From Ruminococcus sp. (GTDB lineage: Bacteria; Bacillota_A; Clostridia; Oscillospirales; Ruminococcaceae), in contig NZ_JAEEMU010000033.1 of NCBI RefSeq assembly GCF_016283395.1, positions 214,499-278,498 on the forward strand: a stretch of 64,000 nt of DNA. Direction: 5' to 3'. This document shows, piece after piece, positions 8,952 through 64,000 of this stretch (positions are counted from its first letter, which is position 1; each line of letters begins with the position of its first letter). The notes under the pieces were generated by a model that saw nothing but the letters and a program-made list of their open reading frames with translations, ran no database searches and was not told the DNA's origin. A program made the position numbers and the translations under genes.

Positions 8952-8956
8952 AATAA

Positions 8957-8987: not shown

Positions 8988-8989
8988 AG

Positions 8990-10221: not shown

Positions 10222-10224
10222 TTA

Positions 10225-11023: not shown

Positions 11024-11108
11024 TAAAGCGTACCAAATAACCGTCTGACGGCGATCATTGCCCCGATCGCGGTTCGGTAAACGCTTCATTTCACAGAAGG
11101 GAAAAACT

Positions 11109-25011: not shown

Positions 25012-25026
25012 CGAACGGAGATCATT

Positions 25027-27037: not shown

Positions 27038-27853
27038 TCATATGGAAGCTTCAAGTCCTACCGCAATATAATATGCGCATTTAAGACTTTCCGCAAGGTA
27101 TGTCTTGTCCTTTCCGTACTTTTTCCTATACAGTATAGCCACTGCTTTTTCGCTGCACAGCTCTTTCAGAAAATCCGCAAGAGTTGCTTCATTTTCTTTC
27201 AGCTTCAATCCATATACTGTCTCACCGTTCGCAGTTCTTTCTCCCAAAGTTACCTGTTCAAGGGGATCATCAGAATAAAACATACTGAATAAATATTCGT
27301 ATATATCAGAAAAAGCTTTCTGGTCTTTAAAGATAGTCCCCTTTTTATGAGACTGCACTTCGCTCAGTATATACGGGATAAAAATACTGTTGTACTGTAT
27401 TATCTCTTCTCCGTCAAACATCGCTCTCTGCTCATCGGTAATACCGAATATACTGTCAAGTCTGACATAAAAGATCTCAAGTTCATACATTAAAGCAAAA
27501 GCAACATCAATAAACGCACATATCTCAGCTTCTGTATATCCGCCGAGTGCAGCGCAGAGCTTTTTTCTGATAGAGCTGAAACTTTCAAAGCGATAAGAAA
27601 TATCAGATAAAATATCCTCAACAGACATTACCGACGTTCCCGGCATATATCTTGTATTATTATCTTCGGTATATCTTTTTATACTGATATGCCTGAATCC
27701 AAGCTCCAAAAAAGTTCAATCAGCGTCTTTAAGATCAATGATACTTTCACTTTTGTATTCTGAAACAACACGCATTTCATCTGAAATAACCCTGCAATTG
27801 CAAGCTCTGTCATTAAAACGCATTATTGCTTTTAACAGTTCTTTATTTTCCAT
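27038..27853 (-). pseudogene. Broken duplicate of the 275-residue protein at 31436-32263
   Basis: From the ATG at 27853 the frame reads MENKELLKAIMRFNDRACN and continues in step with the intact copy at 32251-31436, but codon 46 is TGA (27716-27718) where the intact copy has CGA (Arg). This is a single C-to-T change. After the stop the frame runs open to 27038 with only scattered substitutions. An internal restart at a TTG (27709) is possible but has no ribosome site. The 3' flank including the terminator is also duplicated. Likely an inactive immunity gene copy. Confidence 0.88.
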
Positions 27854-31435: not shown

Positions 31436-32263
31436 TCATATGGAAGTTTCAAGTCCTGCCGCAATATAATATGCGCATTTAAGACTTTCCGCAAGATATG
31501 TCTTATCCTTTCCGTACTTTTTCTTATACAGTATATCCACTATTTTGTCGCTGCACAGCTCTTTCAGAAAATCCGCAAGAGTTGCTTCCTTTTCCTTCAG
31601 CTTCAATCCGTATACTGTCTCACCATTTACGGTTCTTTCTCCGAACGTTATCTGTTCAAGAGGATCATCAGAATAAAACATACTGAATAAATATTCGTAT
31701 ATATCAGAAAAAGCTTTCTGGTCTTTAAAGATATCTCCTTTTTTATGGGACTGCACTTCACTCAGTACATACGGAACAAAAATACTGTTGTACTGTATTA
31801 TCTCTTCACCGTCAAACATCGCTCTCTGCTCATCGGTAATACCGAATATACTGTCAAGTCTGACATAAAAGATCTCAAGTTCATACATCAAAGCAAAAGC
31901 AACATCAATAAACGCACATAGCTCAGCTTCTGTATATCCGCCGAGTGCAGAGCAGAGCTTTTTTCTGACAGAGCTGAAACTTTCAAAGCGATAAGAAATA
32001 TCAGATAAAATATCCTCAACAGACATTACCGACGTTCCCGGCATATATCTTGTATTATTATCTTCGGTATATCTTTTTATATTGATATGCCTGAATCCAA
32101 GCTCCAAAAAAGTTCGATCAGCGTCTTTAAGATCAATGATACTTTCACTTTTGTATTCTGAAACAACACGCATTTCATCTGAAATAACCCTGCAATTGCA
32201 AGCCCTGTCATTAAAACGCATTATTGCTTTTAACAGTTCTTTAGTTTCCATATTTTTCACCAT
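31436..32263 (-). CDS. Candidate immunity protein of the main Rhs toxin
   Basis: Protein of 275 residues (or 271 from the internal METKELLKAIMRF start at 32251). No named family. It is mainly helical with conserved stretches FRHINIKRYTEDNNTRYMPG, YRFESFSSVRKKLCSALGG and AFIDVAFALMYELEIFYVRLDSIFG. It is the first gene after the main Rhs stop (14 bases), the usual place for the cognate immunity gene. A second copy at 27038-27853 is broken by a nonsense codon. No signal peptide, so it would act in the cytoplasm on the toxin tip. Confidence 0.78.
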   Translation of the reverse strand: MVKNMETKELLKAIMRFNDRACNCRVISDEMRVVSEYKSESIIDLKDADRTFLELGFRHINIKRYTEDNNTRYMPGTSVMSVEDILSDISYRFESFSSVRKKLCSALGGYTEAELCAFIDVAFALMYELEIFYVRLDSIFGITDEQRAMFDGEEIIQYNSIFVPYVLSEVQSHKKGDIFKDQKAFSDIYEYLFSMFYSDDPLEQITFGERTVNGETVYGLKLKEKEATLADFLKELCSDKIVDILYKKKYGKDKTYLAESLKCAYYIAAGLETSI

Positions 32264-40276: not shown

Positions 40277-43200
40277 ATGATAAAACGAGTCATTGCAGGA
40301 GCACTGAGTGCAGCTTTATGTACTACAATGGTCCTGTCAAACGGCAACAAATTCATCACAAGTATCGATCCTGAAAGCAAAAACAATGCTTCGATCGACC
40401 GTGTAAGCAATCTGGACTTTGAATCCTCCAACTCATTGGGTAACTTTATCACCCATGCGGCGGAAGAAGACCAGACTGTGAAAAAGCTCGCCAATACTGA
40501 TGTCAGTGACAGCGATTACATGGTTACAGGTCTGGATTATGACCCTGCCACAGGAAAGATAGTTGTGACATCCACACAACCTTACGACAGCAAGTTCGTT
40601 ATCACTTTCGTTGACGAAAAAAACGGTGAACTGTTCGCTTCCGTTGAGGGAACTGCCGAGGCAGGACGTTTAAAGCGAAGCGAAGCTTCTGTTGACGCTT
40701 CCAAGCTTGGAGAGTACTTTATTATAAAGGTACAGCTCTTCGACTTATTCAATCATCCTGTCGGCGATACTTTCGTAGTCAAAAAGTATACCGAGGAAGT
40801 TGCTGATATCCTTTCTAAAACTACTAAGGATTTCTCACAGGACAGAGTCGTAAACTTCGATGACGATGAAACAAACAACTTCGTTGTTCTCAGTGATGAC
40901 ACAGTTATCGCTGAAAGTGCGGACGGTAAGAACGAACTTGTTTCTTCCGACTTTGATAATAACGTTTTCGTTTTCAGCAATGCAGACGATACGGTCAAAA
41001 ACCTCGAAAAGGGTGAATTCTTCTACATTCAGCCAAGTCCCGAAGCTATCGTATCTATTGCAGTTGAGGACGTAAAGATCGACGGCGATACAGTTACCGT
41101 ATCAGGTAACAGCAACATTGACGATATGCTTGCATTCGTTAAGTTTGAGTCACATTCCGATCCAAGAGACGCTGTTCTCGATATGGAAACTGCTGATGAA
41201 GGTATCGTTCGTACAGATACAGATTTTGAAGAGACAGGTGTCATGACATTCGATATGGCACAGTATCTCCTTTCATATTCAAAGACCGCAAGCGAATCTT
41301 TCACTCTCAGCGGCGATATCCCGCTTGGTAATTCGGGTATCAGTCTCGGCGCAGAGGCAGGAGTTTCATTTACTCAGTCCTTTGAGTTCTACAAAGAGTG
41401 GGGATATACATACGCTTATTTTGAATTATCCACTGAGTTCTCATTCTCTATACAGCTCAGTGCTGATAACGGTGACAATGATGTCCTCAAAAACCTGAAG
41501 GAGAAGGAATGCGAGCCAAGAATAGGCAGCGTGGTCATACCTACAGGTATCCCTGGTGCAACAGTAAAGATATCTGTTGATTTCGTTCTCGAGCTTGAAG
41601 GCTCACTTGGCGTAACATTCTCGGGAACTACTACCCACGGCTTCCAGTACGATACAGATGACGGTATGGAGCCTATCGACAAGACTGAGGAAAAATCAAA
41701 GGGTATCACTGTAAAGCTTGAGGGTGAAGCATTTGTCGGTATCAAGCTCTCAGCTTCACTTGACGCAGTAGACCTCGGCTTTATCACTCTTCTTGAATTC
41801 TCACTCTATGCAAAGGCAGGTCTTGACATAACAGGTTCACTTGAATTCTCTTATGCAAAAAGCGGCGAGTCAAAGTCGTTCTCAAACACAGCCTTTGTAT
41901 GCTTCGATACATCGGGCGATACGAAACACGCTTGTGATACGTGTCTCTCAGGTGATGTAAGCTTTGTCGTAACGGCAGGCGTTGAATTCAAATGCCTGAA
42001 GATCGTAGATATCGAATGCGAGATCGCATCATTCAGTATAAAGCTTTTTGACTGGTATCTCAGCCTTGATAATCTCGGACTTGTAGCAGGTGCAGCAGGT
42101 CTTCCTGCTTCATGGATAGCTGCCGCAGGTCTTGCAAAGTTCGGCATCGGTTCGTGCCCGAATATTGCATATAAGACTACATTCAATGTTACTGCTACGA
42201 ATTCAGACGGCGATACATTCACTCCGAATGTTGAGATCATTGTTGACGGCGATGTTTCAACAGGCGTTGTCGGCGGCAGCAACGTAGTTGTATACTGTAA
42301 GAGCGGCAGCCATACTGTTGACGTTATTATAGACGGCAAGAATGTAAAGCATACTTCATTCCATATCAACAACAAGACAAAGGAACTGAACTACAGCTTT
42401 GATCTCAGCGATGAGGGCAACTACAGTTCAGACGGTGCAAGCAGCAGCGATGGTGCTCCTATCGTTACTACTACAGCTACAACAAATCACGTAAAGCGCA
42501 GCGTTACAACTGCAAAAGCACCTGATCCCGATCATTACTGCCTCGAATCAGGCTCGCTCGGCGACCACATAGTATATATGCTCTATCCTACAGGATATAT
42601 GTATATCTTCGGTCATGGCGATATGTATGATTTCAACTATACACCTATCAGAAACATATCCAAGGTAAAGAACGTAGTTATGGAAAACTACGACACAGAG
42701 CACGGTTATGTTATCAATAACATCGGTGCTTCTGTATTCTACGGCGGTTCTAACATCGAGACCGTTGAAATGCCTAAGTCAGTAAAGAGCTTCGGCGACG
42801 CTGCTTTCTACAACTGCTCAAAGTTCAATCATATCATCTATGACCATGAGCACGATGATGATCCCGAGTCATTCGTACTTCCATACGATACTACATACAT
42901 CGGAAACAATGCATTCTATAATTGCAGCTCTGCAAAATTCGGTGATGTAAAGTTTGCTGATACTCTTACATACATCGGAAGCAGTGCATTCTATAACTGT
43001 GTAGGCATTACAGGCATTACAGTTCCTAAGACTGTTACAAGCATAGGAGACAGTGCATTCAGATACTGTACTTCTATGGTATATGCAGATGTCAAGGACG
43101 GCGTAGGCAATATCGAAAGAGCAGCTTTCGCTAACTGTACAGCTCTTGAATCACTTACACTTCCTTACGCAGGCAGAAGCCTTGCTGAGGTAAATGAAGG

Positions 43201-46200
43201 CGAAAGTCCTTACCCTGTATCGTTCCTGTTCTACTACAGCGGTACAGGCACATACTCAGGCTACTACAGCGGTATCCCTGCAACTCTCACAAATATCGTT
43301 ATCACAGGCGGTACAAGAGTACCTGACAATGCTTTCTACGGATTTACTTCTCTCAAGACAATTTCACTTCCCGAGAGCGTAACATCTATAGGAAATAATT
43401 CATTCTACAACTGTTCGAGCCTTGAATTCAACAAGGGACTTATGACAAACAAGCTCGTATCCATAGGACACAGTGCTTTCTATAACTGCTGCTCCGCTAA
43501 GTTCGACAATATCGAATTCCCGACATCACTTAAAACTATCGGAAACAGCGCATTCTATAACTGTACAGGCATCACAAGCCTTTATATCCCCGGCACAGTT
43601 GAAAGCGTAGGAGACAGTGCATTCAGATACTGTACTTCTATTAAGAGCATTGTTGTTGATAATGGCGTAGGAACTCTCAGCAGAGCCGTATTCGCTAACT
43701 GCACATCTCTTGAATCACTTACACTTCCTTATGCAGGATTAAATCTTGCCGAGGTAAATGAAGGTGAAAGTCCTTACCCTGTATCGTTCCTGTTCTACTA
43801 CAGCGGCACAGGTACATACTCAGGCTACTACAGCGGTATCCCTGCAAAACTCAGCAAGATCGCTATTACAGGCGGTACAAGAGTACCTGACAATTCATTC
43901 TACGGATTTACTTCTCTCAAAACAATTTCACTTCCCGAGAGCGTAACATCTATCGGAAACAATTCATTCTTCAATTGTACAAGCCTTGAATTTAACAAGG
44001 AGCTTATGACAAACAAGCTCGTATCCATAGGACACAGTGCTTTCTACAACTGTAATTCAGCTAAGTTCGATAATATCGACTTCCCGACATCACTTAAAAC
44101 TATCGGAAACAGCGCGTTCTACAACTGCACAGGCATCACAAACATCACTATCCCGGGTACAGTTGAAAGCGTAGGAGACAGTGCATTCAGATACTGTTCT
44201 TCTATTAAAAGCATAGTTGTTGACAAGGGTGTGGGAACTCTCAGCAGAGCTGTATTCGCTAACTGTACATCTCTTGAGTCTCTTACACTTCCTTACGCAG
44301 GCTTAAACCTCGCTGAGGTAAATGAAGGCGACAGTCCTTACCCTGTATCATTCCTGTTCTACTACAGCGGCACAGGTACATATTCAGGCTACTACAGCGG
44401 TATCCCTGCAACTCTTACAAATATCGTTATCACAGGCGGTAACAAAGTACCTAACAATTCATTCTACGGCTTTACTTCTCTCAAGACAATTTCACTTCCC
44501 GAGAGCGTAACTTACATAGGAAGCAATGCATTCTTCAACTGCACAAGCCTTGAATTCAACGAAGGTCTTATGACAAACAAGCTCACAGCTATCGGAAGCA
44601 GTGCTTTCTATAACTGTAATTCGGCTAAGTTCAACAATATCTGCTTCCCGACATCACTTACAACTATCGGAAACAGTGCATTCTATAACTGCACAGGTAT
44701 CACAAGCATCATTATCCCCGGTACTGTAAAGACTATCGGCGACAGTGCGTTCAGATACTGTTCCAACATTAAGAAAGCTGTCGTAGAGGACGGTGTTGAA
44801 AGCATAAGCAGAGCCGTATTCGCTAACTGCACATCTCTCGAATCTCTTACACTTCCTTATGCAGGCACAAGCCTTGAAGAAGTAAACAAAGAGGACAGCA
44901 ACTGCCCTGTATCTTATCTGTTCTACTACGGCGGTGAAGGTACATACTCAGGCTATTACGGCGGTATCCCTGCAACTCTCACAAGCATTACTATCACAGG
45001 CGGTACAAGAGTACCTGACAATGCATTCTACGGCTTTACAAACCTTGTTAATGCAACACTCCCAAGCGGACTGGATTCTATAGGAAACAATGCATTCTAC
45101 AATTGTTCAAACCTTGAATTCAGCAAGGGGCTTATGACAAACGATCTTGAAACTATCGGAAATGCTGCATTCTATAACTGTAGCTCGGCTAATTTCAATA
45201 ACATTGAATTCCCGACATCACTCAGAACTATCGGAAACAGTGCGTTCTATAACTGTAAAGGTATCACAAGCATCATTATCCCGGGTACTGTAAAGGCTAT
45301 CGGCGACAGTGCGTTCAGATACTGCTCAAATATGGAAGAAGTCGTTGTAGAAAACGGTGTTGAAAGCCTGAACAGAGCAGTATTTGCTAACTGTACATCT
45401 CTTGAATCTCTCACACTTCCTTTCGCAGGCACAAGCCTTGATGAGGTCAACGGAGACGGAAGCACAAGCTGCGTATCTTTCCTGTTCTATTACGGCGGCG
45501 AAGGTACATACTCAGGCTATTACAGCGGTATCCCTGCAACTCTCGCAAACGTAACTATCACAGGCGGAAATAAGATACCAAGCTATGCATTCTATGGTTT
45601 CAGCAAGCTCAAGCACATTTCAATTTCCGACAGTGTAACATCTATCGGCAATAACGCATTCTACAACTGTTCAGATCTTGAATTTGATACAGATATCTTC
45701 AAAAACAGACTCGAATCTATCGGAAACGATGCATTCTACAACTGCTCATCTGCTAAATTCGGCGATATCGAGTTCCAGCCACCTCTCAGCTACATAGGTT
45801 CATCTGCATTCTATAACTGCACAGGTATCACAAGTATATATGTAAACGGCACAGTCGAGACTGTAGGTGACAGTGCTTTCAGATACTGCACAGGCATGAC
45901 GACAGCTGTTATTGACAACGGTACAGGCAAGATTGAAAGAGCTGCATTCGCTAACTGCACAGCTCTCGAATCACTTACACTTCCTTATGCAGGCACAAGT
46001 CTTGATGACGTAAATGCTGAGAACAGCAGCAGTGCTGTATCTTATCTGTTCTACTACAGCGGTGCAGGTACATACTCAGGCTACTACAGCGGTATCCCTG
46101 CAACTCTTACAGATATCACTATCACAGGCGGCGAAAGAATACCAAACAACGCATTCTATGGATTAAGCAAAGTAAGCAGTATAACTATCCCGAACAAGAT

Positions 46201-46711
46201 CAAGACTATCGGCAGCAATTCATTCTATAACTGCTCAGGTCTTGAAACACTTTACTACACAGGTACTGAGGAAACATGGCCAAACATTGCTATCGGCGGC
46301 GGCAATACTGCTATCGACGGCAAGGTGGTTTGCCTCGGTGCTAAGATCATCAATCATCCTGTCGGCGCAATTGCTGAGGACGGAAGCGATGTTGAATTCA
46401 CTGTTGAAGCAGAGGGTGAAGACCTTCTCTACAGCTGGTCCTACTCTGTACAGAGCGGTATCAACTGGCAGGATATAAGAAACAAGAACTCCGATCCTTC
46501 AACTTTAGTTGTTCCTGCAAGTGCAGATAACAATGGTTATTCTTATCAGTGTATGATCGTCGACAAGTACGGCAATCAGATCTTCTCAGATGCTGCTAAG
46601 CTCACAGTTGTTCCTGCTGAGGATAAAACTCAGGAAACAGAAACACCTGATGAAACAGAAACAGTTATCGAAACCGAATCTGAGGAAAACGAAGAAGACA
46701 CAGCTGCATGA
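40277..46711 (+). CDS. Very large secreted BspA-type leucine-rich repeat protein
   Basis: Protein of 2144 residues. A signal peptide (MIKRVIAGALSAALCTTMVL) is followed by a beta-rich region of about 700 residues with amphipathic strands (LSGDIPLGNSGISLGAEAGVS; KGITVKLEGEAFVGIKLSASL), a Ser/Thr linker (about 710-750), then BspA/LRR_5 repeats (TSIGNNSFYNCSSLEF; VESVGDSAFRYCTSI). The LRR part is built of a 188-residue (564-base) unit in tandem: the PSGIPAT-like site recurs at 43271, 43835, 44399, 44963, 45527 and 46091, exactly 564 apart. It ends in an Ig-like domain (LLYSWSYSVQSGINWQDI) and an acidic tail rich in Glu/Thr. No LPXTG or dockerin is seen. BspA-type proteins are surface adhesins; a ligand cannot be named. 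Confidence 0.9.
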   Translation: MIKRVIAGALSAALCTTMVLSNGNKFITSIDPESKNNASIDRVSNLDFESSNSLGNFITHAAEEDQTVKKLANTDVSDSDYMVTGLDYDPATGKIVVTSTQPYDSKFVITFVDEKNGELFASVEGTAEAGRLKRSEASVDASKLGEYFIIKVQLFDLFNHPVGDTFVVKKYTEEVADILSKTTKDFSQDRVVNFDDDETNNFVVLSDDTVIAESADGKNELVSSDFDNNVFVFSNADDTVKNLEKGEFFYIQPSPEAIVSIAVEDVKIDGDTVTVSGNSNIDDMLAFVKFESHSDPRDAVLDMETADEGIVRTDTDFEETGVMTFDMAQYLLSYSKTASESFTLSGDIPLGNSGISLGAEAGVSFTQSFEFYKEWGYTYAYFELSTEFSFSIQLSADNGDNDVLKNLKEKECEPRIGSVVIPTGIPGATVKISVDFVLELEGSLGVTFSGTTTHGFQYDTDDGMEPIDKTEEKSKGITVKLEGEAFVGIKLSASLDAVDLGFITLLEFSLYAKAGLDITGSLEFSYAKSGESKSFSNTAFVCFDTSGDTKHACDTCLSGDVSFVVTAGVEFKCLKIVDIECEIASFSIKLFDWYLSLDNLGLVAGAAGLPASWIAAAGLAKFGIGSCPNIAYKTTFNVTATNSDGDTFTPNVEIIVDGDVSTGVVGGSNVVVYCKSGSHTVDVIIDGKNVKHTSFHINNKTKELNYSFDLSDEGNYSSDGASSSDGAPIVTTTATTNHVKRSVTTAKAPDPDHYCLESGSLGDHIVYMLYPTGYMYIFGHGDMYDFNYTPIRNISKVKNVVMENYDTEHGYVINNIGASVFYGGSNIETVEMPKSVKSFGDAAFYNCSKFNHIIYDHEHDDDPESFVLPYDTTYIGNNAFYNCSSAKFGDVKFADTLTYIGSSAFYNCVGITGITVPKTVTSIGDSAFRYCTSMVYADVKDGVGNIERAAFANCTALESLTLPYAGRSLAEVNEGESPYPVSFLFYYSGTGTYSGYYSGIPATLTNIVITGGTRVPDNAFYGFTSLKTISLPESVTSIGNNSFYNCSSLEFNKGLMTNKLVSIGHSAFYNCCSAKFDNIEFPTSLKTIGNSAFYNCTGITSLYIPGTVESVGDSAFRYCTSIKSIVVDNGVGTLSRAVFANCTSLESLTLPYAGLNLAEVNEGESPYPVSFLFYYSGTGTYSGYYSGIPAKLSKIAITGGTRVPDNSFYGFTSLKTISLPESVTSIGNNSFFNCTSLEFNKELMTNKLVSIGHSAFYNCNSAKFDNIDFPTSLKTIGNSAFYNCTGITNITIPGTVESVGDSAFRYCSSIKSIVVDKGVGTLSRAVFANCTSLESLTLPYAGLNLAEVNEGDSPYPVSFLFYYSGTGTYSGYYSGIPATLTNIVITGGNKVPNNSFYGFTSLKTISLPESVTYIGSNAFFNCTSLEFNEGLMTNKLTAIGSSAFYNCNSAKFNNICFPTSLTTIGNSAFYNCTGITSIIIPGTVKTIGDSAFRYCSNIKKAVVEDGVESISRAVFANCTSLESLTLPYAGTSLEEVNKEDSNCPVSYLFYYGGEGTYSGYYGGIPATLTSITITGGTRVPDNAFYGFTNLVNATLPSGLDSIGNNAFYNCSNLEFSKGLMTNDLETIGNAAFYNCSSANFNNIEFPTSLRTIGNSAFYNCKGITSIIIPGTVKAIGDSAFRYCSNMEEVVVENGVESLNRAVFANCTSLESLTLPFAGTSLDEVNGDGSTSCVSFLFYYGGEGTYSGYYSGIPATLANVTITGGNKIPSYAFYGFSKLKHISISDSVTSIGNNAFYNCSDLEFDTDIFKNRLESIGNDAFYNCSSAKFGDIEFQPPLSYIGSSAFYNCTGITSIYVNGTVETVGDSAFRYCTGMTTAVIDNGTGKIERAAFANCTALESLTLPYAGTSLDDVNAENSSSAVSYLFYYSGAGTYSGYYSGIPATLTDITITGGERIPNNAFYGLSKVSSITIPNKIKTIGSNSFYNCSGLETLYYTGTEETWPNIAIGGGNTAIDGKVVCLGAKIINHPVGAIAEDGSDVEFTVEAEGEDLLYSWSYSVQSGINWQDIRNKNSDPSTLVVPASADNNGYSYQCMIVDKYGNQIFSDAAKLTVVPAEDKTQETETPDETETVIETESEENEEDTAA
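42880..46220 (+). repeat. 564-base tandem coding repeat (six units)
   Basis: Internal to the LRR gene. Units share ACATCTATAGGAAACAAT-type LRR cores and the spacer encoding FYYSGTGTYSGYYSGIPA. Landmarks recur at 43271, 43835, 44399, 44963, 45527 and 46091 with no length change. Units 1-3 are nearly identical in the spacer; units 4-6 are more diverged (GGEGTYSGYYGG, SGAGTYSGYYSG). Confidence 0.9.
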
Positions 46712-55949: not shown

Positions 55950-57839
55950 TTACTCTTGTTCTTCTTTTTTGCGGAGCTTTCCCGACATTATTACAGCACC
56001 AAGACCAAGAAGTGCAACAGCTGCTGCTCCTGTTAATGTACCTGTAAGTACAAGGGAATTAACGCCTGTCTGTGGGAGATTGACTGTGCTGCCGTCAGAG
56101 AATTTCTCGCCAACACCTGTATCGGGATCAACTGTGTATGCGTCAAAATCTTCGCCTTTTTCATCTGTGAATACAACAGTGACAGAACCTTCTGCGTTAG
56201 TCATTGAATGTGTATCAGCAGGTTTGATACCTGTTTTTTCTTCGTAATCCTTTGCAGCCATTTTCTGAAGCTCATCTGATGAGTATTTGTGCTCGGGCTC
56301 TATATAGCGGACAAAGTGTTCTGAGCCGTCCTGACCTGTATAAAGGTCATTGAGGGGAGTCAGTGAAGTTGCTTCAAAGCCTGTATAGAACTCATTGTTT
56401 TCGTCGTAAAGATTGAACCATGTCTGTATGCCGCCATTGGGATAACCTATATCTTCCACCCTAACAGTACCGTACATTGCTCTTCCTGTAATGAATATAA
56501 GGGTAAATGAACCGTCGTTTCTTATAACGAGTTGTCTTGGATAAAGTGTATCAACTTCGTCCCATGTACCTGATATCTCGGAAACATCGTGTCTTTCGAC
56601 TCCGTAAAAATCACCGAATTCATATCTTTCGATATGCCATTTGCCGCTTACGCATTTGAGTACGGCTCTGCCAACACCGAAGAGTTCATCGCCCTTATTA
56701 GCTGTAGCTGTGCAGTAGTCCATAGCAGGGTCTGTGATGGTAACACCGTTCTCTGTATGGAACTGATAGAAAGAACGCGGTATAAATTGTACATAGAGCG
56801 AACCGTCCTTCTCAATGAAATAGCCATCAATGTATCTGATAAAAACTTCTTTTGCTTCTCCTGTGAAATTATCTGCAACAAATTCATTTAGATCAGCTAT
56901 AGAAGTAAAACGGCTGTCAGTTACCTTTACATAACCGTTTACTTTTCCGTCATCGGTAGTATAAGCAGGACTCGCACCGGTTAATGCCATAATTACATTG
57001 AAGTTTTCCATAACTCTTATAGCACCCTTAGTCTTATCCTCTTTATCAAATGATGCACTCTCGTTCTTGTCATCAGTCTTTCCGCCTTCTGATTGCTCCT
57101 GATCAACATTAGCATTTGTATCGGCGTTTTTGCGTCTGAGAGTAAACTCGCCTGCCTTTAACTCATTGACTGTTTCGCTGTCAGTCTTTGGGAAACCTAT
57201 CCATGCTTTTCCGCTTGCATTATAGAAATTGTAAAATTTTCCATCGCTGTTTTCGCTGAACATCTCGTTACCTATCTTGATAAAGCCCTGATCTGTTTTA
57301 GTATCAGGATATGTAACAGTATAACCACCGTTTGCGCTGATATCGAAAACTCTGCCGTCTCCGTTCACTTCTTCCCATTCGCCTGTTATTGCGGAAAAGT
57401 CAGCGTTTACTGATAAGAGCTGTGCCATTCCGCCGTTTCCGATGAGATATGTATTGGGGTTGTTCTGCTGACAGTAGCAGCCGATAAAGAACTCTTCGCC
57501 CTCATAGAATGCAAAGAACGGAACTTTGAACTCTCCCCCGAATGTATCATAATCTATCTTTACAGTTCCCGAATGTGTTTTGCCGTCAAGGTCGGTATAT
57601 GTATATGTACCGTCCTCCTTTACGGTTATAATGCCGTTGTCAACTGCGCTGACATCAACGTTTTTGTTTTCAGCAGCAAGCTGATACTTCCACTGTCCAA
57701 CAATGTTACTGATATCTGTTTCATCATAAGCTGCTTCTGCCGATACTGATACAGGTGCGGTGTCTGCTGCAAAAGCTGTAGCTGTAGGTACTGCTGCGAG
57801 CATTGCAAGAACTGCGAGACAAGAAATCATTTTTTTCAT
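55950..57839 (-). CDS. LPXTG-anchored surface protein with repeated W-module
   Basis: Protein of 629 residues: signal peptide (MKKMISCLAVLAMLAAVPTATAFA), then three copies of a beta module opening VGQWKYQLAAENKNVD, ITGEWEEVNGDGRVFD and ISGTWDEVDTLYPRQLVIRNDGSF, with a Glu-rich linker between copies two and three (EQSEGGKTDDKNESASF). A middle segment (RVMENFNVIMALTGAS to GDFYGVERH) resembles the adjacent lipoprotein's region YERVTDSRFTTVEDVKKYI. Near the C-terminus are LPQTGVNSLVLTG, a hydrophobic helix and KLRKKEEQE, the sortase A anchoring signal. It would be linked to peptidoglycan. The promoter carries the shared ATTACA-N4-TGTAAT box. Confidence 0.88.
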   Translation of the reverse strand: MKKMISCLAVLAMLAAVPTATAFAADTAPVSVSAEAAYDETDISNIVGQWKYQLAAENKNVDVSAVDNGIITVKEDGTYTYTDLDGKTHSGTVKIDYDTFGGEFKVPFFAFYEGEEFFIGCYCQQNNPNTYLIGNGGMAQLLSVNADFSAITGEWEEVNGDGRVFDISANGGYTVTYPDTKTDQGFIKIGNEMFSENSDGKFYNFYNASGKAWIGFPKTDSETVNELKAGEFTLRRKNADTNANVDQEQSEGGKTDDKNESASFDKEDKTKGAIRVMENFNVIMALTGASPAYTTDDGKVNGYVKVTDSRFTSIADLNEFVADNFTGEAKEVFIRYIDGYFIEKDGSLYVQFIPRSFYQFHTENGVTITDPAMDYCTATANKGDELFGVGRAVLKCVSGKWHIERYEFGDFYGVERHDVSEISGTWDEVDTLYPRQLVIRNDGSFTLIFITGRAMYGTVRVEDIGYPNGGIQTWFNLYDENNEFYTGFEATSLTPLNDLYTGQDGSEHFVRYIEPEHKYSSDELQKMAAKDYEEKTGIKPADTHSMTNAEGSVTVVFTDEKGEDFDAYTVDPDTGVGEKFSDGSTVNLPQTGVNSLVLTGTLTGAAAVALLGLGAVIMSGKLRKKEEQE

Positions 57840-57895
57840 AAAAACTACCTCATTCCTTTTAAAATTGTTATATTTCGGCGTGTGCCTTTACTGTG

Positions 57896-57949
57896 ATTAT
57901 ATAATAGCATATTTTTTCAGCCTTGTGTGCAGAATTACAAAATTGTAAT
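57896..57949 (-). promoter_or_regulatory. Promoter and box of the LPXTG gene
   Basis: Reverse strand -10 TATAAT (57896-57901), no -35 consensus, and box ATTACA-AAAT-TGTAAT at 57934-57949, with 32 bases between -10 and box. The same spacing holds in the two lipoprotein promoters at 59014 and 60069. Confidence 0.7.
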
Positions 57950-57999
57950 TGGTAAAGCCATTTCACGGCGATATGCGCTATGAACTGATTTTTATACGT

Positions 58000-58962
58000 T
58001 TATCTTGCGTTTTCCATACCATCGTCAACTGTAAAGGAGCTTGCCTTCCAAAGACCATTATCCTTGACAGCTTTGACTGTTATATTGGAATATCCGCCGA
58101 AATTATCAAATTTTGCCATTATCGTGAAAGAAGTGTCGGTAACATCTTTAACAACAACATCGTCCGTGTACGGGAAGCCTGAACCTCTGCCGATCTGCAT
58201 GAAATAGAGTGCTCCGTCTATTTCCTTAAATAAAGCTTCTTCACCCTCATAGAAACTGCTGTATCTGTTAAGAAGTGTGCCGCAGATATTATCGGTAATA
58301 TATTTCTTTACATCTTCAACCGTTGTAAAACGGCTGTCTGTTACCCTTTCATAGACAGCATTGCCTTCCTGCTTTGAATCGGACGAATCTACAGCAACAG
58401 CTCCTCCGCCTCCGATCATATCAATGTCATTCAGGCTCTTGAGTATAGCAGAAGCCTCGTTTATCATCGCAACGTTGCTGCCTATGCCCTGATCGCTTGA
58501 TTCTATCTCCTTGATATATTTTGCGCTTACATAACCCGATTTGCCGTTATAGCTTGTACAGTACCAGTCAGCTTTTCCGCATGAGTAAATATTTATCTGA
58601 GTTTTGTCTGGGATAGTGCCGATTATATCTGCTGTGGGGAAGGGCTCGTTTCTGAGGTTGAGAACGTCTCCCTGAGTATCAACATATGCGCCGAATAAGC
58701 GATCGGCTTCATTGAGGACAAGTGTATTTTCTCCGCTGTCTTTGGCTGATGCATCGGTTTTTGCGGAGTCCTTGGACTTTTCTGTAGCATTTGCAGCTGT
58801 TGTTTTTTCCTCTTTTGATGTATCAGCTGTAGTTGTTACAGCTGAAGATGTGGTTGATGATTTAGATACGTTTTCAGATGTTCCGCTGTTATCGGTACTT
58901 CCGCATGATACCATAGAAGCTAACATTGTAAGTATTGCAATACAAGAAATCATTTTTTTCAT
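58000..58962 (-). CDS. Lipoprotein with bacterial SH3 domain
   Basis: Protein of 320 residues; start at MKKMISCIAILTML, 11 bases after GAGG. Lipobox ASMVSC anchors it; a long Ser/Thr/Ala/Lys linker (about 25-85) follows. An SH3b domain is clear: GDVLNLRNEPFPTADIIGTIPD, KADWYCTSYNGKSGYVSAKYI (about 105-165). The C-terminal part (ERVTDSRFTTVEDVKKYI, then MQIGRGSGFPYTD) is shared with the LPXTG protein. SH3b domains bind peptidoglycan or other wall polymers. Its promoter has the shared box. Confidence 0.86.
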   Translation of the reverse strand: MKKMISCIAILTMLASMVSCGSTDNSGTSENVSKSSTTSSAVTTTADTSKEEKTTAANATEKSKDSAKTDASAKDSGENTLVLNEADRLFGAYVDTQGDVLNLRNEPFPTADIIGTIPDKTQINIYSCGKADWYCTSYNGKSGYVSAKYIKEIESSDQGIGSNVAMINEASAILKSLNDIDMIGGGGAVAVDSSDSKQEGNAVYERVTDSRFTTVEDVKKYITDNICGTLLNRYSSFYEGEEALFKEIDGALYFMQIGRGSGFPYTDDVVVKDVTDTSFTIMAKFDNFGGYSNITVKAVKDNGLWKASSFTVDDGMENAR

Positions 58963-59013
58963 AAAAACTACCTCATTCCTAAAAATATTTTTCGGCTTTG
59001 TGCCTTTGCTGTG

Positions 59014-59067
59014 ATTATATAATAGCACAGATCTTTCACTTTGTGTGCAGAATTACAAAATTGTAAT
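59014..59067 (-). promoter_or_regulatory. Promoter and box of the SH3 lipoprotein gene
   Basis: Reverse strand -10 TATAAT (59014-59019); box ATTACA-AAAT-TGTAAT at 59052-59067; 32 bases apart as at 57896. No -35 consensus, consistent with activator-dependent transcription. Confidence 0.7.
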
Positions 59068-59074
59068 TGCTTTT

Positions 59075-60019
59075 TCAGCAGCCTGTGAATACCATTTCGT
59101 CAGCTACGTTTGCGTAGTAGTCGTGCCACAGGAGATTTCCGTTATTATCGGTGTAGAACATTGCACTGCCGTTGTTATAGTTCTCCGTATGTGAGCTCTG
59201 ACCGTCTTCGGTATAAACATAATCCACGTTTACTCCCGAACCGCTGCAAACGAGAGCGTCATTCTCTGCGTCATATGTACAGATGTATGTCCATGCACTG
59301 CCCTCTGCCGCGCTGGAGCTCCACTTTACATCTGCATTGTATGTTCCGTCGCCATTGCTGCTGATACTGATATAGCATCTTCCGCAGCTCCAATTACCCA
59401 TAAATCTCTTGACTGCCGCCAGACTGTTGTCAGGCTCTCCTGATGAGTCGCCGTCACCTAATCCAAATACCGTCGCGGTATTGTCAAATCCCGAAACAAG
59501 TGCAGGAGACATATTTTCACGGGCTGTAAGACGGAAGCTCTCCCACAAAGTACCGTCCTCTCTGTAGAAGCAGTACCAGATATTTGTGACATCATCAGCA
59601 CCAAGCACCTGACGCTCTATCTGAATATTGCCGTATTCACTTCCACCGCCGCGGTATGAAAGCTTATATGTTCCGTCGCCGTCAATAGTAAGAGCACGGG
59701 TATCAAGAACGTTTTCCTCATACCATACACCTGCTATCTGCATATAATCGGTCTTTGTCACAGGTGAAGCTCCGATATTGTCATCAGCTACGACTGTTGT
59801 GCTGTTTCCGTTGCTTTCGGCTTTTTTATTGTCAGACTTTGCATTTGCAGCTGTTGTTTTCTCTTCTTTTGATGTATCTGCTGTAGTTGTGATTGCAGCT
59901 GATGTTGTGGCTGACACTTTCGATACGTTTTCAGATGTTCCGCCGCTTTCGGTATTTCCGCATGATACCATAGAAACCAACATTGTCAGTATTGCAATAC
60001 AAGAAATCATTTTTTTCAT
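59075..60019 (-). CDS. Lipoprotein with W-module, paralogue of neighbours
   Basis: Protein of 314 residues; start at MKKMISCIAILTMLVSMVSC, whose signal peptide is nearly identical to that of the SH3 lipoprotein. A Thr/Ala/Lys/Asn linker (about 25-85) leads to one module: MQIAGVWYEENVLDTRALTIDGDGTYKLSYRGGGSEYG then WYCFYREDGTLWESFRL, related to the modules in the 53748 and 55950 products. The C-terminal part (MGNWSCGRCYISISSNGDGTYNADVKWSSSA) is a further beta module with a W-x-C start. Its promoter has the shared box. Confidence 0.85.
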   Translation of the reverse strand: MKKMISCIAILTMLVSMVSCGNTESGGTSENVSKVSATTSAAITTTADTSKEEKTTAANAKSDNKKAESNGNSTTVVADDNIGASPVTKTDYMQIAGVWYEENVLDTRALTIDGDGTYKLSYRGGGSEYGNIQIERQVLGADDVTNIWYCFYREDGTLWESFRLTARENMSPALVSGFDNTATVFGLGDGDSSGEPDNSLAAVKRFMGNWSCGRCYISISSNGDGTYNADVKWSSSAAEGSAWTYICTYDAENDALVCSGSGVNVDYVYTEDGQSSHTENYNNGSAMFYTDNNGNLLWHDYYANVADEMVFTGC

Positions 60020-60068
60020 AAAAACTACCTCATTCCTATAATTGTTTTTGCTTTGTGCCTTTACTGTA

Positions 60069-60122
60069 ATCATATGATAGCATGGATCTTTCACTTTGTG
60101 CGCAGAATTACAAAATTGTAAT
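60069..60122 (-). promoter_or_regulatory. Promoter and box of the 59075-60019 lipoprotein gene
   Basis: Reverse strand -10 TATGAT (60069-60074), 32 bases, box ATTACA-AAAT-TGTAAT at 60107-60122. The sequence TTTGTGCGCAG before the box is also conserved (TTTGTGTGCAG at 59040). Confidence 0.68.
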
Positions 60123-60254
60123 CGCCGCACTCATATCTCGCAAATTTCTGCACATAAAGCCTGATCAATGATGTTTTGAGATGCTGTTTTTAAACACATT
60201 TCCTTATTGACCTTATCTATAACAAACAATAAAAAAGCGGTATATGCCGAAATA

Positions 60255-60283
60255 TTGACTTCCATCGCTCCAACATCTATAAT
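60255..60283 (+). promoter_or_regulatory. Promoter of cysE
   Basis: TTGACT (60255-60260), 17 bases, TATAAT (60278-60283), 38 bases before the start. No T-box, SAM riboswitch or other leader structure is evident. Confidence 0.82.
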
Positions 60284-60320
60284 AATGATAGGAATTGATA
60301 CCAGAAAGGAGCAATTGTAA

Positions 60321-61265
60321 TTGGACACTTTTGAAGACAATATAAACAGTATAGTGAACGATCTGATAGACGATTATCATAAAGGAAAAGAGATCGACAA
60401 AACAAGGATTTTCAATCACCCTAATAAAGAGGTGATAATAGATATTCTTTCAAGCCTGAGAAAGGTTATTTTTCCCGGATATTTCAAGAACGGCTCAATA
60501 AAGGTGTATACGCTGAGAAATAATCTGTCTATGCTTATTGAGGACGTTATGTTCAAGCTTACCAAGCAGATAACCATAGTTCTGGGCGGTGAAAGAAGAA
60601 ACGATGATGATATCATTGAAAAAGCAAGGCAAATGACTCTCGATTTTACGAAGCGTCTCCGTAAGATAAGGGAATACATAGAGACCGACGTTCAGGCAGC
60701 TTATGACGGAGATCCTGCTGCTTACAGCAAGGACGAGATAATATATTCCTACCCCGGACTTTTTGCTATCCTTATCAACAGGATAGCTCATGAGCTTTAT
60801 ACTCTGGGAGTCCCCATAATCCCCCGTATGATGACGGAATACGCTCACAGTGAGACAGGTATCGACATTCACCCCGGTGCTACCATTGGAAAATACTTTT
60901 TCATAGATCACGGTACAGGTATCGTTATAGGCGAGACCACCATAATAGGCGATAACGTGAAGATATATCAGGGCGTTACACTCGGTGCGCTGTCCACAAG
61001 GGGCGGTCAGGCACTAAAAAGCAAAAAGCGACATCCTACTATCGAGGATAATGTTACTATATATTCGGGAGCTTCCATTCTGGGCGGAGATACTGTCATA
61101 GGTAAGGACGTTGTTATAGGCGGTAACGCATTCATTACACGTTCGGTTCCCGACGGTGCAAAGGTAAGCGTTAAAAATCAGGAACTCCGCTACAATTACG
61201 ACGCTTCAAAGCCTGTTGAACGAGTAGAAATAGAGGAGGACGACAGCTGGTTCTATATAATCTGA
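60321..61265 (+). CDS. cysE: Serine O-acetyltransferase
   Basis: Cytoplasmic enzyme of 314 residues that acetylates L-serine with acetyl-CoA, the first step of cysteine synthesis. The start is TTG at 60321, 9 bases after AAAGGAG; the next ATG is 70 codons in and would remove the helical N-domain. Helical N-terminal domain (about 1-145), then DPAAYSKDEIIYSYPGLFAI with the catalytic region, HELYTLGVPIIPRM, and left-handed beta-helix hexapeptides: EYAHSETGIDIHPGATIGKYFFIDHGTGIVIGET in pieces, with catalytic His in FIDHGTG, and QGVTLGALSTRGG. It is about 40 residues longer than E. coli CysE, as in EpsC/plant-like forms. It heads the encapsulin operon. Confidence 0.93.
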   Translation: MDTFEDNINSIVNDLIDDYHKGKEIDKTRIFNHPNKEVIIDILSSLRKVIFPGYFKNGSIKVYTLRNNLSMLIEDVMFKLTKQITIVLGGERRNDDDIIEKARQMTLDFTKRLRKIREYIETDVQAAYDGDPAAYSKDEIIYSYPGLFAILINRIAHELYTLGVPIIPRMMTEYAHSETGIDIHPGATIGKYFFIDHGTGIVIGETTIIGDNVKIYQGVTLGALSTRGGQALKSKKRHPTIEDNVTIYSGASILGGDTVIGKDVVIGGNAFITRSVPDGAKVSVKNQELRYNYDASKPVERVEIEEDDSWFYII

Positions 61266-61331
61266 CCTTTAAAAGTGCAGGTTATAGAAAACAACTATAG
61301 CCGATACTAAGTTATTTATCAGGAAAAACTA

Positions 61332-61360
61332 TTGTGTTTTTTGTCACATAGTGCTATAAT
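61332..61360 (+). promoter_or_regulatory. Candidate second promoter between cysE and the E1 fusion gene
   Basis: TTGTGT (61332-61337), 17 bases, TATAAT (61355-61360), about 100 bases before the ATG at 61464. The 200-base gap suggests that the last genes can be transcribed without cysE. Confidence 0.62.
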
Positions 61361-61463
61361 ACATACATTGACGTTGTATATTAAAACCATAGTATTTATA
61401 TATGATAAATATGACATATAAGCTTTGGTCGATTACATAAAAGCCGTATAAAGGAGGCTGCAT

Positions 61464-62918
61464 ATGGCAGTTACAGTAGTTATTCCGACAACTCTGAGGC
61501 TCTTTACCGAGCACAGATCCGAAATAGAGCTTGAGGGCAGGACCGTAGGCGAGATACTTGATCTTCTTTCCGCGGAATATCCCGAAACTAAAAAGGCACT
61601 GTTTGACGAAGAAGGTCAGCTCAGAGCTTTCATAAATGTATTTTTGAATGACGAAATGGTCGATCCTGAAGTATTTGATACAGAAGTCAAAGACGGAGAC
61701 GAGGTAATACTTATCCCTGCTATCGCAGGAGGTTCGGGCGTTGAAAGCGTTATCGGAGACAGAAAAGGCGAAAAGCTCACCAATGATGAGATAAACCGTT
61801 ACAGCCGTCACCTGCTTTTGCAGGAGATAGGTGTTAAGGGACAGAAAAGACTCAAAGCCGCAAAGGTACTCATCGTAGGCGCAGGCGGCCTCGGCACTCC
61901 CCTTGCACAGTATCTTGCAGCAGCAGGCGTTGGTACCATCGGCATTATCGACAACGACGAGGTGGAGGAGTCAAATCTCCAGCGTCAGGTAATGCATAGT
62001 ACTCGTGATATCGGCAGACCTAAGGTAGCTTCCGCAAAGGACAGCATACGCCAGATAAATCCGCTGGTAAAGGTAGAGACATACAATATGCGTCTTACAG
62101 CCGAAAACGCTGAGGGTATCATCTCCGAATACGACGTTGTGGCTGACGCTTCCGACAATTATCCCACACGATATCTTGTGAACGACACCTGCGTACTTCT
62201 TGGAAAGCCCGATGTTTTCGGAGCCATGTACCAGTTCGAGGGACAGGTCTCCGTGTACTATGCAAAGGAAGGTCCGTGCTTCAGATGTATGTACCCTGCA
62301 CCTCCCCCGGCAGGACTTGTTCCTTCTTGCGCAATGGGCGGCGTAGTAGGTGTACTCCCCGGAGTTATCGGTACTTTGCAGGCTAACGAAGTAATAAAGC
62401 TTATCGTTGGCGGAGGAAAAAACCTCATCGGCAGAGTTGTCACCTTTGACGCATGGAATCTCAAATGGCGAGAGCTGAAAATACATAAAAACGATAACTG
62501 TCCGCTCTGCGGCAAGAAGAGGACTATTACCGAGATAGAGGATTTCGATTACGAGGATTTCTGCGGACTTACTCAGCAGAAAGAGGAAGAAGCAGAGGTA
62601 GAAGGAATTGAGCCTAAGGAGCTCAAACGCCGCATTGACGATGGTGAGAAGATAACTATCGTTGATGTCCGCGAACCTCACGAAAGAGCTATCGCAAAGT
62701 TCCCCGATGCCATAGTTATCCCTATAGGACAGCTTGAAAGACGTCAGAAGGAGCTCGATACTTCTGTTGATACAGTCTTTGTCTGCAAGGAGGGCAAGAG
62801 AAGCATACTTGCTGTGAATACTCTCCGCGAAGCAGGCTATACAGGTCCGCTTTACAACTTAAAGGGCGGTACAAACGCATGGGCAAGGGAAGTTGATAAG
62901 GATTTCCCAATCTATTGA
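61464..62918 (+). CDS. Ubiquitin-like sulfur carrier / E1-like adenylyltransferase / rhodanese fusion
   Basis: Protein of 484 residues with three units. Residues 1-90: a MoaD/ThiS/CysO-like ubiquitin fold ending DGDEVILIPAIAGG, with Gly-Gly at 89-90. Residues 105-365: a ThiF/MoeB/MoeZ E1-like enzyme with the ATP loop GAGGLGTPL (139-147), DNDEVEESNLQRQ, zinc cysteine pairs at C272/C275 and C346/C349, and C289 in PSCAMGGVVG. Residues 383-484: rhodanese domain with VDVREPHERAI and active-site loop CKEGKRS (C441). Known relatives adenylate and thiocarboxylate a separate carrier to deliver sulfur for cysteine or cofactors. Here the carrier is fused and its GG is internal (followed by SGVES), so it needs cleavage or acts differently. 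AAAGGAGG precedes the start. It is upstream of the encapsulin gene. Confidence 0.9.
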   Translation: MAVTVVIPTTLRLFTEHRSEIELEGRTVGEILDLLSAEYPETKKALFDEEGQLRAFINVFLNDEMVDPEVFDTEVKDGDEVILIPAIAGGSGVESVIGDRKGEKLTNDEINRYSRHLLLQEIGVKGQKRLKAAKVLIVGAGGLGTPLAQYLAAAGVGTIGIIDNDEVEESNLQRQVMHSTRDIGRPKVASAKDSIRQINPLVKVETYNMRLTAENAEGIISEYDVVADASDNYPTRYLVNDTCVLLGKPDVFGAMYQFEGQVSVYYAKEGPCFRCMYPAPPPAGLVPSCAMGGVVGVLPGVIGTLQANEVIKLIVGGGKNLIGRVVTFDAWNLKWRELKIHKNDNCPLCGKKRTITEIEDFDYEDFCGLTQQKEEEAEVEGIEPKELKRRIDDGEKITIVDVREPHERAIAKFPDAIVIPIGQLERRQKELDTSVDTVFVCKEGKRSILAVNTLREAGYTGPLYNLKGGTNAWAREVDKDFPIY

Positions 62919-62944
62919 TTATCGGACAGAGAAAGCTTTGAAAA

Positions 62945-62973
62945 ATATACATGGACTCAATACCCATGTATCA
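62945..62973 (+). promoter_or_regulatory. Small hairpin before the encapsulin gene
   Basis: TACATGG and CCATGTA pair around ACTCAATA in the 118-base gap between the E1 fusion and the shell gene. No T run follows, so it is not a terminator; it may affect mRNA processing or translation. Confidence 0.4.
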
Positions 62974-63036
62974 CGCCATACTAAAGCTTACTAAATCTGT
63001 CTGTAATATATACATTAATAAATGGAGGTAGACATT

Positions 63037-63990
63037 ATGTCTAAGGAAACAAAAAATGACACCATAGTTGCACTTGGCAAAAAAGCGGCATATAACCTTG
63101 CCGACGTTAACAAGACCAGACCTCAGTACGGTGCACTGACACCAAAGTGGATCACAAAGGTACTCGAATTCAAGGGACTTGACTCAGGTATTTACAGAAT
63201 AAACAAGGTTAAAGAGGGCGAAACTCCTCTTGACGTTCTTTGCAGCGTTGAGAAGAAGTCTGACATAATTCCTCAGGGTTATGTTGAGTATGAGGAAGAG
63301 CCAAGAGAGCTTCAGCTCGCTTCTATCTCAACTATCATAAACGTAAACACAGCAGTGGCTGATGTATACGGTTCGCCATACGATCAGGTAAAGGAGCAGC
63401 TCGACCTTGCTATCGAGAGCCTTCGTGAGCGTCAAGAGAGCCAGCTTATCAACAACGATGATTACGGCCTTTTAAAGAACGTTCCTGATTCTCAGAGAAT
63501 CCAGACAAGAAACGGTGCACCTACACCTGATGACCTCGATGAGCTTATCACAAAGGTTTGGAAAGAGCCTTCATTCTTCCTTGCACACCCAAGAGCTATT
63601 GCAGCATTTGAGAGAGAATGCACAAAGAGAGGCGTACCGCCCGTTACCACAAACATCGCAGGCGGCACATTCATCGTATGGAGAGGAATCCCGATTATTC
63701 CAACAGATAAGCTCCTTGTTGACGGTCTCAAGAATCCAAAGAGCAAGAGCGGAAAGACAAATATCCTTCTCGTTCGTACAGGTGAGGCTAAGAGAGGCGT
63801 TATCGGTCTTTTCCAGCGTAATCTGAAAAACGAACAGTCAAGAGGACTTTCAGTTCGTTTCAGAGGAATTGATGATAAGGGCGTTGCTTCTTATCTGCTT
63901 TCACTCTACTGCTCGGCAGCTATTCTCTCAGACGACGCTATCGCTGTTCTCGAGGATGTCGAGGTAGGTGAATACTATGACTACGACTAA
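63037..63990 (+). CDS. Family 2A encapsulin nanocompartment shell protein (SrpI-like)
   Basis: Shell protein of 317 residues that self-assembles into a protein-bounded nanocompartment (HK97 fold). The start is set at MSKETKNDTI, because the GGAGGT that would serve it overlaps the upstream ATG at 63022. Family marks: NKTRPQYGALTPKWITKVLEF near the N-terminus, REL-QLASISTIINV and DQVKEQLDLAIESLRERQE, INNDDYGLLKNV, PTPDDLDELITKVWKEPSFFLAHPRAIAAFEREC in pieces, and TFIVWRGIPIIPTDKL. Characterised family 2A shells enclose a cysteine desulfurase and store or process sulfur. Neighbouring cysE and the rhodanese fusion fit that role. The next gene overlaps its end. Confidence 0.94.
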   Translation: MSKETKNDTIVALGKKAAYNLADVNKTRPQYGALTPKWITKVLEFKGLDSGIYRINKVKEGETPLDVLCSVEKKSDIIPQGYVEYEEEPRELQLASISTIINVNTAVADVYGSPYDQVKEQLDLAIESLRERQESQLINNDDYGLLKNVPDSQRIQTRNGAPTPDDLDELITKVWKEPSFFLAHPRAIAAFERECTKRGVPPVTTNIAGGTFIVWRGIPIIPTDKLLVDGLKNPKSKSGKTNILLVRTGEAKRGVIGLFQRNLKNEQSRGLSVRFRGIDDKGVASYLLSLYCSAAILSDDAIAVLEDVEVGEYYDYD

Positions 63991-64000
63991 TTACGGTATA
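63977..64000 (+). CDS. Start of the next gene, overlapping the encapsulin end (cut by window)
   Basis: An ATG at 63977 inside the last codons of the shell gene reads MTTTNYGI and runs off the window. The 14-base overlap in another frame suggests translational coupling. In known family 2A loci the neighbour is a cargo cysteine desulfurase with a disordered N-terminal targeting stretch; identity here cannot be shown from 8 codons. Confidence 0.5.

Follow-up and report, generated by a model that had tools for sequence, protein, structure and literature searches.

A family 2A encapsulin gene of Ruminococcus in an operon with a fused ubiquitin-like carrier and its E1: a possible sulfur store tied to protein thiocarboxylate transfer

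The DNA analysed here (the window) is a stretch of 64,000 nucleotides from Ruminococcus sp. (contig NZ_JAEEMU010000033.1), and a candidate encapsulin operon lies at its right-hand end. A serine O-acetyltransferase (SAT), a fusion of ThiS-like sulfur carrier, E1 enzyme and rhodanese, an encapsulin shell protein and the start of a further gene follow one another there (Table 1). The window itself ends at 64000 and DNA past this position was read from relatives; what was seen directly is gene content and order (SAT, fusion, shell and the next start in the window, the rest in relatives), catalytic motifs and linkage within a lineage. The shell protein scored 483.2 bits against the NCBIfam family 2A model NF041162 (cut-off 380) and 316 bits against PF19307, and the solved shells 8t6r (E 1.1e-110) and 6x8m (E 1.1e-107) matched it over nearly the whole length. 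A single Pfam family was found in it at E <= 0.001, with no cNMP-binding domain, which is the mark of family 2B, and the 2B model NF041163 gave 369 bits, under its cut-off of 400. The pore glycine and proline of SrpI (G194/P196) are kept as G199/P201. By these comparisons the gene is that of a family 2A encapsulin shell, and an HK97 fold is expected from the likeness to solved shells; a structure prediction built from 16 similar sequences reached a mean pLDDT of 32, a confidence too low for use, and was not used. The shell of R. flavefaciens already carries the same name at NCBI. The start codon ATG is preceded by GGAGG at 63024-63028, and a longer frame, listed from 63022 and opening inside that stretch, is the less likely start.

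The SAT scored 167.5 bits against TIGR01172, below the cut-off of 210.65, and 153.8 against 150 for the EpsC model NF041874. In the fusion, PF02597 covers residues 5-90, PF00899 residues 113-347 and PF00581 residues 384-475, and Uba4 (6yub) is the best solved relative of the E1-rhodanese part. A structure model of the fusion had a mean pLDDT of 64, with residues 86-123 (the Ala-Gly-Gly, AGG, and the linker) below 50, and no further use was made of it. The promoter-like site before SAT is to be read with the count of such sites under the same consensus scoring, 20 in 4 kb as compared with a mean of 7.4 in shuffled sequence. Rfam searches at the gathering threshold were negative for the window, and in six loci they revealed no riboswitch at the operon. 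Four public loci (L001-L004) have a shell of 99-100% identity and keep the order of the three genes, so the arrangement is beyond chance. The first-pass annotation of the window had proposed an SrpI-type shell gene behind SAT and a carrier-E1-rhodanese fusion, overlapped at its end by another gene; the shell, the two genes before it and the overlap are all borne out.

Table 1. Features of the encapsulin operon in the window (positions are those of the 64,000-nucleotide stretch)
Feature	Position	Strand	Basis
Promoter-like site TTGACT-17-TATAAT	60255..60283	+	11/12 consensus match only; directly 5′ of SAT gene
Serine O-acetyltransferase (SAT), CysE/EpsC type, 314 residues	60321..61265	+	Profile match; same place in L001-L004
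ThiS-like carrier / ThiF-MoeB E1 / rhodanese fusion, 484 residues	61464..62918	+	Domain matches
Internal Ala-Gly-Gly closing the carrier domain of the fusion, residues 88-90	61725..61733	+	AGG kept in 84/84 fusion frames; variable linker, then E1
Rhodanese loop Cys441 (CKEGKR), putative active-site cysteine	62784..62786	+	Invariant in 10/10 aligned fusions
Family 2A encapsulin shell protein, 317 residues	63037..63990	+	NF041162, PF19307, solved shells
Start of shell-overlapping gene, first 8 codons	63977..64000	+	Same 8 residues open the desulfurase in L001, L002

The records closest to the window come from Ruminococcus flavefaciens and from rumen Ruminococcus assemblies. Over 60200-64000, L001 and L002 (R. 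flavefaciens ATCC 19208) share about 89% DNA identity with it and show no rearrangement, and the eight visible residues of the gene that begins inside the shell frame, MTTTNYGI, are those of the desulfurase start in both. In L002 this gene encodes a 573-residue SufS-type cysteine desulfurase (SufS model 538 bits against 475) whose N-terminal extension of about 175 residues has no Pfam match; it scored 790.5 bits against the 2A cargo model NF041166, just under the cut-off of 800. Colinearity and the eight residues strongly indicate that the window has the same desulfurase gene, and the shell most likely houses this enzyme. Thus the desulfurase with a long N-terminal extension that had been anticipated beyond the window is found in the relatives.

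The desulfurase gene of L002 is followed by genes for a MetY-type enzyme, TusA, thioredoxin, a free ThiS-like carrier of 68 residues with the C terminus GGGQ, an E1 without rhodanese, a Prok-JAB protease and thioredoxin reductase. From shell through thioredoxin reductase, adjacent genes overlap or lie 75 bases or less apart, and CysK comes 174 bases after thioredoxin reductase. The third-best solved relative of this MetY is 3ri6, which we take to be the Wolinella enzyme. Two layouts were distinguished. In the R. flavefaciens group the order is SAT, fusion, shell, desulfurase, MetY, TusA, thioredoxin, carrier, E1 and JAB, in some loci followed by thioredoxin reductase and CysK; elsewhere it is JAB2, fusion, shell, desulfurase and SAT, often preceded by MetY or a second cysteine synthase (for that of L017 the closest solved structure is O-acetylserine sulfhydrylase B). 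One JAB was found in the R. flavefaciens genome, inside the operon. The carrier fusion thus appears, from these gene orders, to be part of a larger thiocarboxylate gene set that is cut by the window edge. The sulfur context claimed for the shell in the first-pass annotation is supported, with SAT and the fusion in the window and the desulfurase, MetY, TusA and cysteine synthase in relatives; the proposed set of SAT, rhodanese and E1 is present and was incomplete, since the larger thiocarboxylate gene set continues in relatives.

These genes suggest a reading to which we give an even chance, namely that a family 2A encapsulin with a SufS-type desulfurase packaged in it is expressed together with a protein-thiocarboxylate relay, the whole acting as a sulfur vault with a ubiquitin-like withdrawal arm. 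The E1 and ThiS domains are also common to the pathways of thiamine and molybdenum cofactor, and a different contig of R. flavefaciens carries one more ThiS gene. The fusion might serve one of those cofactors while the desulfurase feeds other acceptors, such as iron-sulfur clusters or thiolated cofactors. This seems to us very improbable: the downstream genes typed in L002 are for sulfur amino acids and redox (no thiamine or molybdopterin search was made at other loci), and operons for thiamine and molybdenum cofactor are without a JAB gene as PMC1779556 describes them.

The arrangement was followed in relatives of the shell to establish how steadily its partners occur. The shell search gave 517 relatives, of which the best 80, all GTDB loci (L001-L080), were used; these loci are kin, because they were chosen by shell similarity. 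Their genes were typed by comparing proteins against queries taken from L002, L017 and L031, so distant forms of the partners may be missed. Position counts cover 79 of the 80 loci, L018 being left out with no open shell frame found. In each of the 72 loci that extend 1.7 kb or more upstream, the fusion stands immediately 5′ of the shell, and in each of the 76 that extend 1 kb or more downstream, the desulfurase lies 3′ of it. Among the 46 gene chains clear of a locus edge, fusion, desulfurase and a JAB are present in 46 each and SAT in 42, followed by ThiS (29), E1 (29), MetY (28), TusA (27) and cysteine synthase (13). The homocysteine core of MetY, free carrier, E1 and JAB occurs together in L002 and in 26 of these 46 chains. 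Correlations of partner distance with shell distance (n 44-71) were 0.77 for the fusion, 0.74 for E1, 0.65 for MetY, 0.60 for SAT, 0.56 for JAB, 0.47 for JAB2 and 0.37 for the desulfurase; they were rejected as an argument, being too tied to kinship and partial frames.

Genome samples not picked by shell similarity were also analysed, a genome of the two family samples being counted as shell-positive when it had a shell over the cut-off. In the bacterial family of R. flavefaciens (G001; 197 genomes) a full-length fusion is present in 5 of 6 shell-positive genomes and 0 of 191 others (Fisher p 2.6e-9), and in that of Pseudobutyrivibrio (G004; 200 genomes) in 5 of 5 and 0 of 195 (p 3.9e-10); kinship is not corrected for in these values. 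Pooled, the two families have the fusion in 10/11 shell-positive and 0/386 other genomes. G001 and G004 had been picked for bearing the operon; leaving them out gives 4/5 and 4/4. A genome with two shells in the G004 family has two fusions. In a phylum sample of 398 genomes including G001, seven are shell-positive and two of them have the fusion (G001, G344).

Linkage of this kind could reflect shared regulation alone. The operons would then be ordinary family 2A sulfur metabolism, and the carriers would adjoin the shell through one shared regulator of sulfur shortage, such as the Rrf2/CymR-like gene of L002, with no sulfur passing from shell to carrier. An Rrf2-family gene does lie on the opposite strand beside the operon in L001-L004 (typed in L002). 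Five plasmid operons (L091-L093, L109, L110) have shell and desulfurase, with SAT in four of the five, and the fusion and JAB queries matched nothing in them; some carrier modules have a sulfite reductase of their own, and PMC1779556 describes thiocarboxylate operons that stand alone in many bacteria. However, shared regulation alone leaves unexplained both the genome-by-genome tracking of fusion and shell in two families and the position of the fusion directly upstream in 72/72 loci. This explanation keeps a fair though smaller chance, and a working connection between the encapsulated desulfurase and the thiocarboxylate genes is preferred.

The reach of the link was defined on the shell tree, where one clade (99/83) holds all 41 fusion-bearing rows together with the long-branched, fusion-less L116 and two unreadable rows. 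L019 and L039 were considered as absences of the fusion in the tree and rejected, a contig edge lying just before the shell in each. Among 247 Spirochaetota genomes, including the centre G005, three have a shell over the cut-off; in two of these the fusion or its parts adjoin the shell, and in one (G581) they do not. Related sets in this phylum have the carrier fused (L053) or unfused and ending in AGG plus four residues (L111). In Campylobacterota, a plasmid of Aliarcobacter cibarius (L090) carries cysteine synthase, JAB, an unfused carrier (AGG plus one residue), a split E1-rhodanese gene, shell, desulfurase and SAT. Shells on plasmids of Synechococcus, Azospirillum, Methylosinus, Variovorax and Paraburkholderia had no nearby match to the fusion or JAB queries. 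On the shell-tree clade, the genome samples and the plasmid operons, the fusion-shell link belongs to a single shell lineage that spans three phyla and not to family 2A as a whole.

Three of these loci have features of their own. L053 belongs to Treponema zioleckii and stands on the shell tree among Lachnospiraceae, as if the block had moved between phyla. In L090 (8955-11985) an IS5-family transposase splits the E1-rhodanese gene, and the adjoining shell, desulfurase and SAT are open. L121 (G581; 5845-11522) has two adjacent shell genes with open frames of 487 and 495 residues, SAT and one desulfurase, with no match to the carrier queries, and is perhaps a two-shell operon.

The motifs of the partner proteins were compared next to one another, with distinct-sequence counts given because a few loci are the same genome twice. 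The AGG closing the fused carrier is present in 84/84 fusion frames (79 distinct) and invariant in 10/10 aligned, and the linker after it ranges from almost nothing to over 20 residues. Free carriers of the homocysteine module end in GGG followed by one to six residues in 55/55 frames (52 distinct), by one or two in 52/55. Since none of the 55 ends in bare glycine-glycine, these carriers would need trimming before a thiocarboxylate could form. The JAMM motif is intact in 51/51 and 61/61 JAB frames (50 and 59 distinct). A carrier, an E1 and a JAB might also constitute a ubiquitin-like tagging system for shell or cargo, for instance in shell turnover, with sulfur transfer secondary, and the three do match the archaeal SAMP system models NF041918, NF047750 and NF041370. 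All these scores lie under the cut-offs, however, and the rhodanese, TusA, MetY, cysteine synthase and SAT of the same operons are sulfur enzymes, which makes tagging very improbable.

In the desulfurases, RxGHHCAQP is present in 84/84 frames over 600 bits (80 distinct). SrpI-associated desulfurases have two N-terminal motifs, LARLANEFFS-like and AASPYYFLDG (PMC8049743). The first has the form LESLANSLFPDF in L001/L002 and LSRLANELFPDL in L031, and a loose pattern for it matched 56 of the 77 distinct cargo frames of fusion-bearing loci. AASPYYFLDG is absent in 81/81 cargo frames of fusion-bearing loci, 79 of which (75/77 distinct) carry a Tyr/Phe-Ser-Pro-x-Val type stretch; a motif of the YYFL type is present in 8/12 fusion-less frames. 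The patterns were chosen after the sequences had been viewed, so the difference is a lead. It is in any case no strict criterion of family 2A, since PMC8049743 reports AASPYYFLDG in most, not all, SrpI-associated cargo and as not sufficient for loading.

Taken together, the genes suggest a mechanism of which every biochemical step, the loading of cargo and the direction of flow are deduced from gene content. Cysteine would enter the shell, where the desulfurase would strip its sulfur, and this would be held inside as sulfane sulfur or exit as sulfide or small persulfides; the shell would stop the desulfurase from passing persulfide straight to outside proteins. On sulfur need, the rhodanese domain and TusA would collect sulfur outside the shell, with electrons from thioredoxin and thioredoxin reductase. 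The JAB protease would trim the free ThiS-like carrier past its Gly-Gly-Gly and cut the fused carrier after the internal AGG, and the E1 enzymes would adenylate the exposed glycine and load the carrier as a thiocarboxylate. With carrier sulfur, MetY would convert O-acetylhomoserine to homocysteine, and cysteine synthase would make cysteine from SAT-made O-acetylserine; JAB would then release the amino acid and the carrier would recycle. Deposit and withdrawal at different times would avoid a futile cycle from cysteine to cysteine. The fuller proposal, of a sulfur bank in which the encapsulated desulfurase deposits cysteine sulfur and a JAB-activated carrier built into its own E1 withdraws it for cysteine or homocysteine, the cargo-loading peptide having changed alongside, is put forward tentatively, and we think it somewhat more apt to fail than to hold.

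Several points weigh against such a connection. For the pore of SrpI a width of 3.7 A is reported, which cysteine is presumed to traverse (PMC8049743); sulfur would have to leave the shell in a small form, because carriers and rhodanese could not pass a pore of this size, and the proposed hand-over would depend on such a form. Making cysteine from cysteine-derived sulfur would be futile unless storage and release took place at different times, a condition that does not apply to homocysteine. Neither homocysteine nor sulfur release need depend on the operon, since R. flavefaciens encodes three further Cys_Met_Meta_PP enzymes along with other class-V aminotransferase/desulfurase genes. The R. 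flavefaciens genome speaks for the connection in giving no sulfite reductase domain at E <= 0.001 (the same search was positive in 11/14 control genomes), but 3/5 genomes checked have a sulfite/nitrite reductase domain, among them YE71 (G002), which has the same layout, and G004, where the domain sits within the carrier module; in these genomes the carriers may draw sulfide from another source. The linkage itself has exceptions. In the phylum sample five of the seven shell-positive genomes, mostly with more distant shells, are without the fusion, and L116 (G745), whose shell is of this lineage, has none. In G213 and G310, which have no shell, a protein aligns with the fusion from its carrier through to its rhodanese (42% identity), and seven genomes of that sample have carrier-E1 fusions without a shell.

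The idea that the fusion is unique to encapsulin bearers was accordingly rejected, the phylum-scale sample showing fusion-like proteins in shell-less genomes. The role of the G213 and G310 proteins in encapsulin-less genomes could reveal the original role of the fusion.

Further features lie elsewhere in the window. Just before the operon, at 55950-60130 on the minus strand, are three genes with similar signal-peptide-like starts, two of them lipoprotein-like and one of those with an SH3_3 domain. A 2421-residue RHS-repeat protein with a pretoxin-HINT domain is encoded at 32278-39543, and two similar small genes without Pfam match (31436-32263 and 27038-27709) are possibly immunity-like copies. 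An AAA ATPase gene followed by a McrBC-family gene at 23254-25860 is likely a modification-dependent restriction system, and 40277-46711 encodes a 2144-residue protein with BspA-type leucine-rich repeats in 11 matched stretches.

The literature searched, which left supplements, preprints and most subscription journals outside, gave no account of a 2A shell steadily joined to genes for carrier, E1 and JAB. To our knowledge the fate of the sulfur released by family 2A encapsulins is unsettled, and an Acinetobacter encapsulin is said to store sulfur. Operons in which a 2A shell is joined to thiocarboxylate genes would give a direct handle both on this fate and on the sulfur source of CysO-type pathways, and several bearers are named isolates (L002, L015, L034, L044). 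A further point of interest is that these operons naturally encode a ubiquitin-like protein as one chain with its own E1, from which it would have to be cut before use.

Compared with SrpI/CyD of Synechococcus elongatus and other solved 2A shells, the present system shares the near-full-length shell sequence and the pore glycine and proline, and with SrpI/CyD-type systems it shares the adjacent SufS-type desulfurase with a long N-terminal extension and SAT and rhodanese in the operon. The fusion-bearing operons differ in the added carrier, E1 and JAB genes and in the second cargo motif. A count of 2021 placed family 2A desulfurase operons in 12 phyla, and among their accessory genes SAT and rhodanese were the most enriched (PMC8346489). 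The set of shell, desulfurase, SAT and rhodanese is thus not new; the first-pass annotation was right that the set is present in a less studied host, though with less novelty than it implied.

The cysteine pathway of Mycobacterium tuberculosis (CysO, MoeZ, CysM and Mec+), for which the sulfur source was called unknown (PMC3227635), shares a ubiquitin-like carrier ending in Gly-Gly, an E1-rhodanese, a cysteine synthase and a JAB-type protease. In contrast to it, most loci here fuse the carrier to the E1 and have the encapsulin desulfurase in the operon, and SAT in the operon suggests O-acetylserine, not O-phosphoserine, as the substrate. The cysteine synthase is of CysK type in L002 and OASS-B-like in L017, and its dependence on the carrier is putative.

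With the thiocarboxylate-dependent homocysteine pathway of Wolinella succinogenes are shared a free carrier with residues past the glycines, an E1 without rhodanese, JAB, TusA (SirA) and O-acetylhomoserine sulfhydrylase. The steps of that pathway are reportedly carried out by components named HcyS, HcyF, HcyD and MetY. Its existence is cited in PMC6225789, and the same genes (free carrier, E1 without rhodanese, JAB, TusA (SirA) and O-acetylhomoserine sulfhydrylase) form the type 4e gene set of PMC1779556 (2006), which describes similar sets without encapsulin and whose main text is without SrpI or cysteine desulfurase. R. flavefaciens differs from Wolinella in that no sulfite reductase domain was found in it, whereas 3/5 checked genomes have one. 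The operons described here differ further in that these genes are joined to an encapsulin and its desulfurase, with a putative use of the carrier by MetY.

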